Assembly: GCF_000737595.1 (NCBI RefSeq)
Contig: NZ_CP006271.1
Coordinates: 1,240,001 to 1,304,000, forward strand
Length of the DNA: 64,000 nt
Direction of reading: 5' to 3'
Source: Synechococcus sp. KORDI-52
Lineage (GTDB): Bacteria > Cyanobacteriota > Cyanobacteriia > PCC-6307 > Cyanobiaceae
Shown here: in pieces, positions 40,271-44,967 of the stretch
Numbering within the stretch: position 1 is the first letter of the stretch
Layout of the letters: every line of letters starts with the position of its first letter
The notes under the pieces: model-generated
Database searches by the model: none
What the model was told of the DNA's origin: nothing
What the model saw: only the letters and a program-made list of their open reading frames with translations
Position numbers and translations under genes: made by a program

Positions 40271-40510
40271 TCAACCGTTCCGCTCCGCTGCGGATCGGTA
40301 GGCGGCGGGGACGAGCACTAGAAACAGCAACCACCAGGCCAGCACGCCCAGGGCCAGAGGAAGGCTGATCCAGAGGCGATGCAGCAGGGCCCAGGACCCG
40401 CTAACCATCAGCACTCCTGTGACGAGGATGGACCAGGGCTGGCACCACCAAGGTTTGAGCGACCAGAAGGGTGGTTGTTCCCGAGATTCAGCGGAGGGCG
40501 TCGAGTTCAC
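40271..40510 (-). CDS. DUF6737-like small membrane protein
   Basis: The 79-residue product has a short polar lead, the Trp-rich FWSLKPWWCQPWSILVTG, and two hydrophobic helices with a WLLFLVLVPAAY end, as in the small DUF6737 family. GTG 40508-40510 is used as start; it overlaps the upstream fusion gene by 23 bp, suggesting coupling. Confidence 0.6.
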   Translation of the reverse strand: MNSTPSAESREQPPFWSLKPWWCQPWSILVTGVLMVSGSWALLHRLWISLPLALGVLAWWLLFLVLVPAAYRSAAERNG

Positions 40511-41090
40511 CGGCGGCTTGCATGGCAGCGAGGGTGTCGTAGCCACCAATCACGGATCCGTCGATGAACACCTGGGGGAAGGTGCTCATTCCACTGCGTT
40601 GTTGCACGGCTTGGAAAGCGTCGTCATCGTTGATGGTGGTGACGCTGTGGGGCAGATCCAGGGTTCTGAGGATGCGCAGGGCACGGCTGCACCAGGGGCA
40701 TCCGGGAAGAACGGCGATCTCCACCCGTGGCGCTGATGTTTGGCGCCCGGGGCGGCCTTCGCGTTGCTCCAGCACACCAATCAGGAGGTCGACGCCCTTC
40801 TGCACGATGGTGCCGGGCTCCAGGTGGCCGCCCCACACCTGGCAGGCTCCATCCGAGAGGCTCAGGTGCAGATGCACGCCCTCAGGGGAGAAGGTTCCGT
40901 TGAGGGTGATCACCTCAAGATCCCCCTCCAGCACGGTGGGGTTGGCCTGCCCCGGGCACTGAAACGACGCTTTGGTGAGATTGCCCACCACGCCGAGCAC
41001 AAAGCCGTTGATGCCGTCCCGTTGGGCCAGCTCTTCGAGGCTGAGGCGCAGGTCACTGCCGGGAGCGAGCTTCAGCGGCAGGGAGTGCAT
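40488..41090 (-). CDS. PCC(DUF296)-glutaredoxin fusion protein
   Basis: The 200-residue protein joins two domains. Residues 1 to about 115 are a PCC/DUF296 domain: LKLAPGSDLRLSLEELAQ, GFVLGVVGNLTKASF and GVHLHLSLSDGACQVWGGHL, the His-rich trimer-forming fold seen in AT-hook proteins. Residues about 122-200 are a glutaredoxin: AVLPGCPWCSRAL (Cys131, Cys134), TFPQVFIDGSVIGGYDTL for glutathione binding. A two-cysteine site suggests disulfide reductase activity. Its 3' end overlaps the DUF6737-like gene. Confidence 0.85.
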   Translation of the reverse strand: MHSLPLKLAPGSDLRLSLEELAQRDGINGFVLGVVGNLTKASFQCPGQANPTVLEGDLEVITLNGTFSPEGVHLHLSLSDGACQVWGGHLEPGTIVQKGVDLLIGVLEQREGRPGRQTSAPRVEIAVLPGCPWCSRALRILRTLDLPHSVTTINDDDAFQAVQQRSGMSTFPQVFIDGSVIGGYDTLAAMQAAGELDALR

Positions 41091-41175
41091 GGCGCCTCAA
41101 AAAGTGTGCTCAAGATTACGCAACCTTGTCTTGCACGATATTGGCTATATATTGTGAATATTTTTTCACGAAATC

Positions 41176-41412
41176 GTGTCTCTCCTTCAGGATCTGGTTC
41201 AGGAGCTGCAGCAGCGGCTCGAGGGCCAGGCCGCGGCGCCCAGCACGGCTGCGGTGGCGGACGCCGCCGGTTCGGAGCGCATCAACGTCACCCTGCCCCG
41301 TGGGGTGATGGATGACCTCAAGCGCCATGCCCTTGCCGAGGGGCGCAGTTGCGGCAATTTGGCCGCCTATCTGCTGGAAGAGGCCCTGCGCCGGCATCGT
41401 TCCCTGGGGTGA
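41176..41412 (+). CDS. Ribbon-helix-helix-like small protein
   Basis: The 78-residue protein starts with GTG. Its C-terminal half (RINVTLPRGVMDDLKRHAL then AYLLEEALRRH) has the beta-strand-helix-helix outline of CopG/Arc repressors. The N-terminal half is Gln-rich. No toxin partner is next to it; a DNA-binding role is only suggested. Confidence 0.6.
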   Translation: MSLLQDLVQELQQRLEGQAAAPSTAAVADAAGSERINVTLPRGVMDDLKRHALAEGRSCGNLAAYLLEEALRRHRSLG

Positions 41413-41421
41413 GGCTTTCGC

Positions 41422-42495
41422 TCAATTCAGCAGCCGGTTGGCAATCTCTTCGACATGACCCCGCCGTTGAAGTCTGAGGATGGAGACGTCCATCGGAGTC
41501 CGCAGGGGATTGTTCGGTTTGATCACGAATCCGTAGGTCTCTTCGGCAAGGGTGAAGGGGGCGAGGCGAAGGGCGAGATCGGGATTGTTTTTGAGGTGAT
41601 AGCGAAGGGCGGGTCGATCGAAAATCAAGGCATCGGCTTGTTTCTTGGTCATGAATTGAATGGCTCCCTTGAGATCGGGTGCCGCCACGATTCGCATGTC
41701 TCCGCGTTGGGCAAGTTCCATGCCGCTGGTGCCTTCCACGACGGCGATACGACGCCCGTTGAGCTGATCAGGTCGGCTGATCGCCGTTTCGGTGGCGCCG
41801 GAGAGAAACAATGTGAACGCTGACGCGAGGCTCGCGGTCAGGGACGACACCGCGACTAACGAGATCACCATCCAGAACCCCGTGATCCCCCGGCCTGTTC
41901 GTGTGATGGGTGCTTTGTCGCCATATCCCACCGTGGTCAAGGTCACCAGGGCGAACCACATGCCGCTGCTGATGCCGGGAAGCCAGGCCCGCGGGAACTG
42001 CTCACTGTTGTGGTTCCGTTCGGCCATCCAGATCAGGCTGCCGACCACCAGCAGCACGCTGATCAGCACCAGGACCGAAGACATCACCGCCCAGCCGAAA
42101 AACACCCCGACGCGGCTCAGGATCGACGGTGGGTTCAGCGGGAGCAACACCCCCGCCTTGCCCAGGTAGTACGGCTGGGTGAAGTCGATTCCGGGGATGG
42201 CCAGGCGGCGGGACGTGATGCTGATCGGACCGACCAGAACGTCAATGCGTCCCTTGTCCACAGCTTCAATGCCGGCTTGGGGTGATGGCTGTTGAATCAG
42301 CGTGTAGCTGAGGTTGTTGTCTTCAGCGACGCGACGCCAGATGTCGAGGCTGATGCCGCTGCTGGTGTTGCCGTCCTCGATCACGAAGGGGGCGGAGCCA
42401 CTGATCCCCACCTTCAGCTGGTTGGCCTGCAGGGGCGGTGCGCTGCTGAAACAAGCGAGCGCGAGGACGACGGACCAGCGTCGAACCGTTCGCAT
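41422..42495 (-). CDS. GluR0-like ligand-gated potassium channel
   Basis: The 357-residue protein has a signal peptide, a bilobed periplasmic-binding-like domain split around a channel pore, and the order S1 lobe (about 27-130), first helix (about 130-155), pore and second helix, then S2 lobe (to 357). The filter T188-V-G-Y-G-D193 is the potassium signature. This is the layout of the prokaryotic glutamate receptor GluR0 of cyanobacteria. The ligand is probably an amino acid. Its ATG overlaps the stop of a 26-residue frame upstream (TGATG). Confidence 0.9.
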   Translation of the reverse strand: MRTVRRWSVVLALACFSSAPPLQANQLKVGISGSAPFVIEDGNTSSGISLDIWRRVAEDNNLSYTLIQQPSPQAGIEAVDKGRIDVLVGPISITSRRLAIPGIDFTQPYYLGKAGVLLPLNPPSILSRVGVFFGWAVMSSVLVLISVLLVVGSLIWMAERNHNSEQFPRAWLPGISSGMWFALVTLTTVGYGDKAPITRTGRGITGFWMVISLVAVSSLTASLASAFTLFLSGATETAISRPDQLNGRRIAVVEGTSGMELAQRGDMRIVAAPDLKGAIQFMTKKQADALIFDRPALRYHLKNNPDLALRLAPFTLAEETYGFVIKPNNPLRTPMDVSILRLQRRGHVEEIANRLLN

Positions 42496-42575
42496 CAGCG
42501 TTGTTCCAGGCGCCGCACAATCACGGCCATGGCCGCCAGTGAACCCGCCAGCGCGATCAGCAGGGCGATGGTCAT
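42495..42575 (-). CDS. Candidate 26-residue membrane microprotein coupled to the GluR0-like channel
   Basis: ATG 42573-42575 opens the frame MTIALLIALAGSLAAMAVIV followed by RRLEQR, one hydrophobic helix with a positive C-terminus. Its TGA shares one base with the start of the channel gene. There is no strong ribosome site, so it may be translated by coupling from the upstream 66-residue frame, which ends 7 nt earlier. Too short for homology by eye. Confidence 0.4.
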   Translation of the reverse strand: MTIALLIALAGSLAAMAVIVRRLEQR

Positions 42576-42582
42576 GGAAAAG

Positions 42583-42783
42583 TCAGGGAAGGGATGGTGC
42601 GATCAGATTGGCATCCCCGGCACCGAGCAACCAGTCGGCCACTTCCATCCTCAGGGCATAGGCACACTCGTAGCGGCCGTGGGCTTCCAGAAAGTTCAAC
42701 CGTTGTTCCAGTGATCGCAGGGTTGAACCTGCGAGCTGGTGTGGTCCCTTGCCACGCGCCACAATGCGTTTTCTGAAGTGCAT
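42583..42783 (-). CDS. Small hypothetical protein (66 aa) upstream of the channel
   Basis: The product ends with a helical stretch STLRSLEQRLNFLEAHGRYE and then a hydrophobic, Trp-containing end. The first ten residues are basic. No domain recognised. ATG 42781-42783 is the plain choice. It is divergent from the PdeM-like gene and precedes the microprotein by 7 nt. Confidence 0.5.
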   Translation of the reverse strand: MHFRKRIVARGKGPHQLAGSTLRSLEQRLNFLEAHGRYECAYALRMEVADWLLGAGDANLIAPSLP

Positions 42784-42850
42784 GGAGCTTGAGGCACGAC
42801 GTCGGACATCGGATGCAGCCAGCGCTACAGATCCTCGATCTGTCCCGTGG

Positions 42851-43525
42851 ATGACTGGCATGGAATGGGCTTGGGGAGACAGCCCGCTGACGTTCCTGCC
42901 CGAACGGGCGCTTTGGCGCGCTGAGGGGCGCGAGCTGTTCGTCGCCGACCTGCACCTCGGCAAAGCCGAGGTGTTTCAGGCCCATGGCATCCCCATGCCC
43001 AGCGACGGTGATCAAGGAACCCTCAATCCACTGCTTGCCCTCTGCCATGCCCGCTCGCCTGAGCGCTTGTTTGTTCTGGGTGATCTTGTACATGCCCGGT
43101 TGGGCATCACCGCTCCGCTGCGCGACACGTTGCTGGCTCTGCCCGATCTCTGCGGTTGCCCTGTCGTTCTGATCGGTGGAAACCATGACCAAGGCAGTTG
43201 GATTGAAGGTTTGCCCCAGCAGCCCTCCCAGCGTCTTGGCAATCTCTGGTTGAGCCACATGCCTGAAAGGGTTCCAGAGCCGGGTTTGTTGAATGTGTGT
43301 GGTCACCTTCATCCCACGACACGGATTCGAAGCCGTTCAGATCAGTTGCGTTTGCCCTGTTTCGCCTTCGATCCGGATGGTCCGCGTCTGGTGATTCCTG
43401 CCTTCGGGCAGTTGACGGGAGGCCATGACTGCGGCGAGCGTTACCAGCAATGGCTGGTGGCCGACGGCTCCATCGTTCCTTGGTTCGATCCTCTCCCCCA
43501 CAACCGAGAGCGAAGACTCGCGTGA
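42851..43525 (+). CDS. Ligase-associated metallophosphoesterase (PdeM-like)
   Basis: The product is a calcineurin-like phosphoesterase with the metal ligands in VADLHLGKAE, FVLGDLVHARLG, IGGNHDQGSW and NVCGHLHPTTRI. This spacing fits PdeM, the DNA end-processing nuclease/phosphatase often linked to a DNA ligase-helicase operon. Those partners are not nearby. ATG 42851 gives 224 residues; a downstream ATG (42860) is an alternative. The last bases overlap the start of the next gene (GTGA). Confidence 0.82.
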   Translation: MTGMEWAWGDSPLTFLPERALWRAEGRELFVADLHLGKAEVFQAHGIPMPSDGDQGTLNPLLALCHARSPERLFVLGDLVHARLGITAPLRDTLLALPDLCGCPVVLIGGNHDQGSWIEGLPQQPSQRLGNLWLSHMPERVPEPGLLNVCGHLHPTTRIRSRSDQLRLPCFAFDPDGPRLVIPAFGQLTGGHDCGERYQQWLVADGSIVPWFDPLPHNRERRLA

Positions 43526-44967
43526 CTCAGCCTGCTGAGCGGCGACCCCGAGCCAAGCGGCGCCTTCGGCTGCGCAAGCGCTGGCTGCTTCTGGCGATGC
43601 CATTTGTGGTGTTCGGTGGCTTGATCGGGCTGGCGCCTGTCGCACCTGAGCATTCCGATCGTGAAGTGCAGCAGGTCGATCCTGCCCAGCAACGCCGGCG
43701 GGATGCCGAGCCCTTTCTCTACATCCCGGATGACGAGGTCTACGCCCTGGATCTCGATCCAAGACGGGTGCGGTTCGGGTTGCTGGAAGGTTGGGATCGC
43801 GAACAGGATGCCTACGAGGACAGTGCTGCTCTGGCCTATGTGTCAGGCCCGATGTACGAACGCCATGTGGACAACGCTGGACGTGAGATCACTGTTCCTC
43901 TGGGTGATCTCAAGTTCGGCAGCAAGGTCTGGCGAGGGCGTAACCGCACGGCCTCCCGCCAGCGGGCCTACGTCGGCATCCGCCACGACGGCAGCATCGA
44001 TTTCGGCTATGGGGAGCTGACCGATGCCCGCAGCCAGGCGTACGACACGTTCATTGGTGGCCTCCACAGCCTCTACAACGACATCGAGGCCCCGCCCGAC
44101 AGCTACAAGGGGGCTTACAGCATCAGCATGGGCCAGAGGATCCGGTATTACCTACCGCGGATCCGCATGGTGATGGGCCTGCGTCAGGACGGTCATATGG
44201 AAGTTTTGATGAGCCGTGACGGCCTGACGTTGGAGCAGAGCAAGGAGCTGGCCCGTCGCCGGGGTTACCTGGCGGCCTACATGCCAGACCATGCATCGAA
44301 GAGCCGCTTCATCATTCCTGGGGTGAAGGGATTCACCGAAGAAGATGCCAACTGGATCAGTGGCGGGGCAACCAGCTTTGTGCATGTGCCCTACATGCTG
44401 CGGTTGAGTCGGCGTCAGATCCCTCTGCAGGGAAATCTGATGGCGGGTCTGACGCCACGGTTCGTGATGGATGAGGCCTGTGATGGCCCCGTTGACTGTG
44501 TGAGCTCCTTTGGCAACCATCTCGTGGATCGCGCCCTGGCGGGCTTGAACCGGGTGATGGAACAAGGTGTCGAACCTGTGGCCCGGATGATCTGGGGGCC
44601 CTCAAGCTCCACCAAGCCTGGGGTGCCCGCGGATGCAGGCGGCGGCGTGGATCTGGATCGCGCGCCGTTGCGGGAACCTCCGATCACGGCGGATCCGTTG
44701 GTCCTGCGGGAGCAGCCGGCCTTGATCCGGGAGCTGGAGCCGGCTGAACCCGATCTGGACGACAACTGGACGGAGCCGCAGCCATTTGCGCCGTTACCCC
44801 CCGATCTGCCACCGCCGACCTTTCTCGATGAGCCGGCGGCCAATCCAGCTGAGGTTCTCCTGGCTGAACCGGTGGATGCCGTTCCGCCTGACCTGCTTCA
44901 GGAGGCTCCCCCGCCGCCGGATCTTCCTCCCCTGCCGCCCGCTCCTCTCCCGGTTTTGCAGGATTGA
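43522..44967 (+). CDS. Membrane-anchored protein with proline-rich C-terminal tail
   Basis: This 481-residue protein starts with GTG. A basic lead (about 1-20) precedes one membrane helix (about 21-42). A large soluble domain (about 60-370) has repeated Tyr/Gly segments (for example YVGIRHDGSIDFGYG), and the last 100 residues are rich in Pro, Glu and Leu (LPPDLPPPTF, PPPPDLPPLPPAPLP). It is an exported or periplasm-facing protein with a Pro-rich linker. I do not recognise the domain; a distant phosphodiester-glycosidase-like resemblance is too weak to claim. Confidence 0.7.
   Translation: MTQPAERRPRAKRRLRLRKRWLLLAMPFVVFGGLIGLAPVAPEHSDREVQQVDPAQQRRRDAEPFLYIPDDEVYALDLDPRRVRFGLLEGWDREQDAYEDSAALAYVSGPMYERHVDNAGREITVPLGDLKFGSKVWRGRNRTASRQRAYVGIRHDGSIDFGYGELTDARSQAYDTFIGGLHSLYNDIEAPPDSYKGAYSISMGQRIRYYLPRIRMVMGLRQDGHMEVLMSRDGLTLEQSKELARRRGYLAAYMPDHASKSRFIIPGVKGFTEEDANWISGGATSFVHVPYMLRLSRRQIPLQGNLMAGLTPRFVMDEACDGPVDCVSSFGNHLVDRALAGLNRVMEQGVEPVARMIWGPSSSTKPGVPADAGGGVDLDRAPLREPPITADPLVLREQPALIRELEPAEPDLDDNWTEPQPFAPLPPDLPPPTFLDEPAANPAEVLLAEPVDAVPPDLLQEAPPPPDLPPLPPAPLPVLQD

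Follow-up and report, generated by a model that had tools for sequence, protein, structure and literature searches.

A predicted 26-residue membrane protein of picocyanobacteria is kept with or without the GluR0-like channel gene that follows it in marine Synechococcus

Some ion transport systems have accessory subunits of a single helix; KdpF, which belongs to the kdp operon, is an example. The locus described here resembles the KdpF type in that a tiny hydrophobic frame precedes a gene for ion transport; in contrast to KdpF, which lies within the kdp operon, this tiny gene occurs mostly in genomes that do not carry the channel in question. GluR0 (Slr1257) of Synechocystis is a prokaryotic ionotropic glutamate receptor with a K+ filter and belongs to group 1 (PMC2950845), and its physiology is the subject of PMC13099474. 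GluR0 and the predicted channel of the present locus have the same domain order and the same TVGYGD filter. The accessible parts of both GluR0 papers mention no small upstream partner, and the comparison is uninformative on the tiny gene.

The window (the whole stretch of 64,000 nucleotides that was analysed) comes from a genome of 2.57 Mb that behaves like that of a marine Synechococcus relative. The preliminary description of this DNA had recognized a 66-residue frame, a 26-residue frame and a GluR0-like channel gene, arranged with a 7-nt gap and a TGATG overlap, and all of these elements are present on the minus strand: the 66-codon frame (42783-42583) is followed, after 7 nt, by the 26-codon frame, here called gene B, and then by the channel gene. 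The upstream frame is called frame A. The features of the locus are listed in Table 1. The divergent phosphoesterase may resemble a ligase-associated PdeM enzyme. A promoter and terminator scan of the locus gave nothing usable.

Table 1. Positions of the features at the locus, numbered from the first letter of the window
Feature	Position	Strand	Description
PCC-domain + glutaredoxin fusion	40488..41090	-	next gene on the channel's strand
CopG-like ribbon-helix-helix protein (RHH_5)	41176..41412	+	convergent neighbour of the channel
GluR0-like ligand-gated K+ channel (predicted)	41422..42495	-	signal peptide, S1, TM1, pore with TTVGYGD filter, TM2, S2
TGATG overlap of B stop and channel start	42493..42497	-	one-base overlap, channel ATG at 42495
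Gene B	42495..42575	-	predicted 26-aa one-helix membrane protein MTIALLIALAGSLAAMAVIVRRLEQR
Frame A	42583..42762	-	predicted soluble helical protein of ~59 aa; 66 aa with a start at the non-conserved ATG at 42783
Divergent calcineurin-like phosphoesterase	42851..43525	+	Pfam Metallophos

The channel consists of 357 aa. Above the Pfam cut-off, SBP_bac_3 (residues 27–354) flanks Ion_trans_2 (158–227) and Lig_chan (135–229), so that the S1 and S2 ligand-binding lobes are split by a two-helix pore, as in GluR0. The K+ selectivity filter TVGYG is found within the motif TTVGYGD, with the filter at residue 188, and the closest solved relative is the ligand-binding domain of Slr1257/GluR0 (1IIT, E 2e-40). 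Domain order, filter and closest solved relative bear out the earlier reading of the gene as a GluR0-like ligand-gated K+ channel, whose gating and conduction are predicted.

A small frame taken alone is uninformative, since there are 230 ATG frames of 20–40 aa in the window. Gene B goes beyond chance because a profile search finds it retained by 229 of 300 Cyanobiaceae genomes, in 48 of 59 genera, and because its pS of 0.43 in its own genus stands against a pN of only 0.03 (pN/pS 0.08; 17 distinct DNA versions). The same 26 residues, but for one, are encoded in 11 genomes of this genus, the channels of which are 76–100% identical to that of the window. The one-helix frame that had been pointed out from the letters alone is accordingly judged, by comparative evidence, to be a genuine and conserved gene under purifying selection. 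Copies of B were gathered with the pattern M-T-x-x-L-[LIV]-x5-[SA]-[LIV]-x-x-M-x-x-I-[VI]-x-x-[LMI], giving 102 copies that represent 91 DNA versions and 71 proteins; a few copies start with MI instead of MT and fall outside this pattern.

Residues 1–20 of B have a GRAVY value of 2.49 and are followed by RRLEQR, so B presents the single hydrophobic helix, about 20 residues long and flanked by charge, that is typical of a small single-pass membrane protein. Under the positive-inside rule a basic flank lies on the cytoplasmic side. The helix of B begins at residue 2 and the basic residues come after it; therefore B would insert N-out/C-in, with its RRLE tail predicted to be cytoplasmic. No usable match for the A–B pair was found in Pfam, NCBIfam or the PDB. 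The family NF045534 weakly matches 6 of 30 B members (best E 1e-4), and it was rejected as an identity for B, the match being read as shared small-membrane-protein composition. No description of B was found in the open-access literature searched.

Carriers of B span marine and freshwater picocyanobacteria, with nearly always one copy per genome and with second matches being rare and weak. Only Cyanobiaceae score convincingly, and no credible match was found in the rest of the Cyanobacteriia; the matches outside the family, with E values of 0.006–0.04, lie mostly within long frames and were dismissed as chance. B is not universal in the family, because it was not found in genomes of g17, which are HL-Prochlorococcus-like, nor in those of g24, g8, g44 and g54, also with a second, more divergent profile. 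It was likewise not found in the phage collection or in IMG/VR. This distribution bears on the idea that B is a membrane-active peptide of the type I toxin kind, or a regulator of a membrane protease. A very short hydrophobic helix with a charged tail is indeed the form of Ldr/TisB/Fst-type peptides. However, type I toxins tend to come in several copies and to be patchily distributed, whereas B is single-copy in nearly all its carriers, strongly conserved across genera and absent from phages and viral contigs, and no Rfam match, such as an antisense RNA, occurs in positions 40300–44000. We regard this idea as highly improbable.

A microprotein translated together with a channel might be its auxiliary subunit, as had been suggested for B in the preliminary description, in which case B would be co-translated and assembled with the GluR0-like channel. 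Channel and B were tallied by hand from the result tables over the same 300 Cyanobiaceae genomes. An intact channel ortholog is present in 55 genomes, 51 of which carry B. In these, B lies directly upstream of the channel in 42 verified cases, with G098 and G120 being outside the individually checked set, and elsewhere in seven (G072, G083, G099, G121, G128, G157, G194). Thus, when conservation of the 26-residue frame upstream of GluR0 homologs was checked, B was indeed found directly upstream of most orthologs in marine Synechococcus. The adjacency, together with the one-base overlap in 11 close relatives and the precedent of KdpF, is what speaks for an auxiliary subunit. A dedicated subunit would be expected only or mainly where the channel is present, but B is carried by 171 of the 237 channel-less genomes. 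It would also be expected to be lost or to decay with the channel, but it persists in seven of the eight genomes with a broken channel (G034, G097, G112, G162, G216, G261, G279, G297), and in G112, G162, G216 and G279 both A and B are intact next to the broken gene. Conversely, the four genomes that have an intact channel without B all belong to genus g24, one of them, G024, being a single contig. The channel also evolves much faster than B (pN 0.098 versus 0.004 in 11 close relatives), and B and the channel are neighbours mainly within a few related genera, a pattern that may go back to very few events. Furthermore, a channel-less version of the locus, with B followed by the PCC-glutaredoxin gene, exists in Prochlorococcus-like genomes and in G259. 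Since B is kept without the channel, beside broken channels and unlinked to intact ones, and since the locus itself exists without the channel, B is independent of it: B is kept with or without the channel. An auxiliary subunit is therefore very unlikely, and that B is a real gene but no dedicated subunit of the channel is highly probable.

The exact TGATG overlap was found in 11 genomes, all of the same genus as the window, and it is just disturbed in G216; outside those genomes, the stop of the 26-aa frame precedes the channel by 0 to about 480 nt. The one-base overlap is a local state. In the own clade, translation of the channel is likely coupled to the B stop by termination and reinitiation, as the TGATG arrangement suggests; co-translation is thus plausible in close relatives, and elsewhere the overlap is replaced by a spacer. 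The same overlap would also accommodate a regulatory leader peptide or upstream frame that controls the downstream gene. However, the gene after B differs by clade (the channel, the PCC-glutaredoxin gene or unrelated genes), and the conservation of B lies in its amino acids over the full length rather than in its DNA, which makes a leader extremely improbable.

The stable neighbour of B is the upstream frame A of about 60 aa. The 66-residue frame of the preliminary description exists, but its ATG is not common to the relatives, which share a GTG or ATG start seven codons further inside; we therefore treat A as a protein of ~59 aa, the conserved start of which is probably the GTG at 42762. Its core reads ETxxWLExRLxxLExxxRFExAYALRME[MV]A[ED]WLL, and its pN of 0.048 among 12 close relatives points to purifying selection. 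A profile search gave clear A orthologs in 49 genomes (cut-off above 65 bits, the next best match scoring 46). Each of the 49 directly precedes B on its strand, from a 4-nt overlap to a distance of about 110 nt, and 24 of them are away from the channel. The distance from the A stop to the B start is a 4-nt overlap in some members of g34, 6–7 nt in g1 and 22–70 nt in freshwater genera, in which an A homolog stands upstream of B also where the channel is located elsewhere or absent. Because a detectable adjacent A is found in only 49 of the 229 B carriers, A is not obligatory for B. The AlphaFold model of A, made from the single sequence, is a helix hairpin with a mean pLDDT of 68, and a Foldseek search with this model returned nothing significant; a resemblance of the predicted fold to UVR hairpins is only an impression. 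Weaker A paralogs of the ERYEDSYAI type occur in nearly all picocyanobacteria, including g17, a genus without B. One such paralog, KEERYEDSYAITQEFCEWI, is encoded at L286:822-968 on the minus strand (genome position 1204822-1204968), and it has relatives even in HL-Prochlorococcus-like genomes.

In the likeliest reading, B is a small membrane protein that has escaped annotation and that has a soluble helical partner; we propose the following role for it. B would be a small single-pass membrane protein of picocyanobacteria whose ancestral partner is A rather than the channel. Its conserved face, MT..LL..L.GSL..M..I, may pack on a larger membrane complex common to picocyanobacteria, while the RRLE tail together with A may form a cytoplasmic contact, so that the A–B pair could serve as a small subunit, structural or regulatory. 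The channel gene of marine Synechococcus lies immediately after B, and in one subclade its translation probably reinitiates at the B stop; the link between B and the channel would then be one of expression rather than of subunit composition. B fits a subunit or regulator of a membrane complex because it is single-copy, strongly conserved and in no fixed operon except that with A. Taken as a whole, a real membrane protein B with partner A in the role of a subunit or regulator is the explanation we somewhat favour, and the small-subunit mechanism in particular is put forward as a tentative possibility.

The known proteins nearest to B in kind are PetL, PetN, PetG, PsbM and Psb30, with which it shares size, a single helix, single copy and strong conservation; different from them, B has no Pfam or NCBIfam sequence match apart from the weak one to NF045534. 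B was rejected as Psb30/Ycf12 (PF05969), since the same genome carries Psb30 elsewhere (E 1.1e-14). B could instead stand in, within this clade only, for a small photosynthetic subunit that is missing there, with PetL of the cytochrome b6f complex as the likeliest candidate; it would then be the missing fourth small b6f subunit, or else an equivalent, unrecognised subunit of another thylakoid complex, with A as an assembly partner. PetL (PF05115) was detected in 155 of 242 Cyanobacteriia genomes, with none among 29 Cyanobiaceae and 155 among 213 others, whereas B occurs only in Cyanobiaceae, and both are alike in length, single helix and basic C-terminus. A published survey also lists petL as absent from its freshwater Synechococcus and Prochlorococcus strains (PMC10161378). 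Against this, PetL is not essential in Synechocystis according to work cited in the same survey, and many other genes are also Cyanobiaceae-specific. By sequence profile B is not a PetL: the hhalign probability is 0.2%, and hmmsearch scores equal those of background frames of the window. Given the lack of a sequence relation and the clades in which B is undetected (those named above), we consider this replacement unlikely. If it were true, it would explain picocyanobacteria without a recognisable PetL.

The preferred reading, an A–B pair with B as a genuine membrane protein, places B among the conserved cyanobacterial microproteins missed by earlier annotation, like Norf1, Norf4 and NsiR6 (PMC5126843). 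In contrast to Norf1 and Norf4, which are lacking in marine picocyanobacteria (PMC5126843), B is picocyanobacterial only. What is new here is very probably an unannotated membrane microprotein of picocyanobacteria with a small soluble partner, for which the part of a dedicated channel subunit is very improbable; the natural guess that a gene next to a channel encodes one of its subunits is thereby corrected as probably wrong. Picocyanobacteria are among the most abundant photosynthetic cells. Most of their genera retain B with a nearly identical sequence, yet protein family libraries seem to lack it, probably on account of its shortness. For experimenters it offers a precise and easily tagged target.

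Several observations concern the neighbours of B. At least 8 Cyanobiaceae genomes, several of them complete, carry a broken GluR0-like channel, which suggests that the channel is dispensable in some lineages. Many relatives have retained the CopG-like protein at this locus, and one of them lacks the channel. In many Prochlorococcus-like genomes without the channel, the PCC-glutaredoxin gene comes directly after B, and clear relatives of this fusion were found in all 12 of the Prochlorococcus-like genomes searched.
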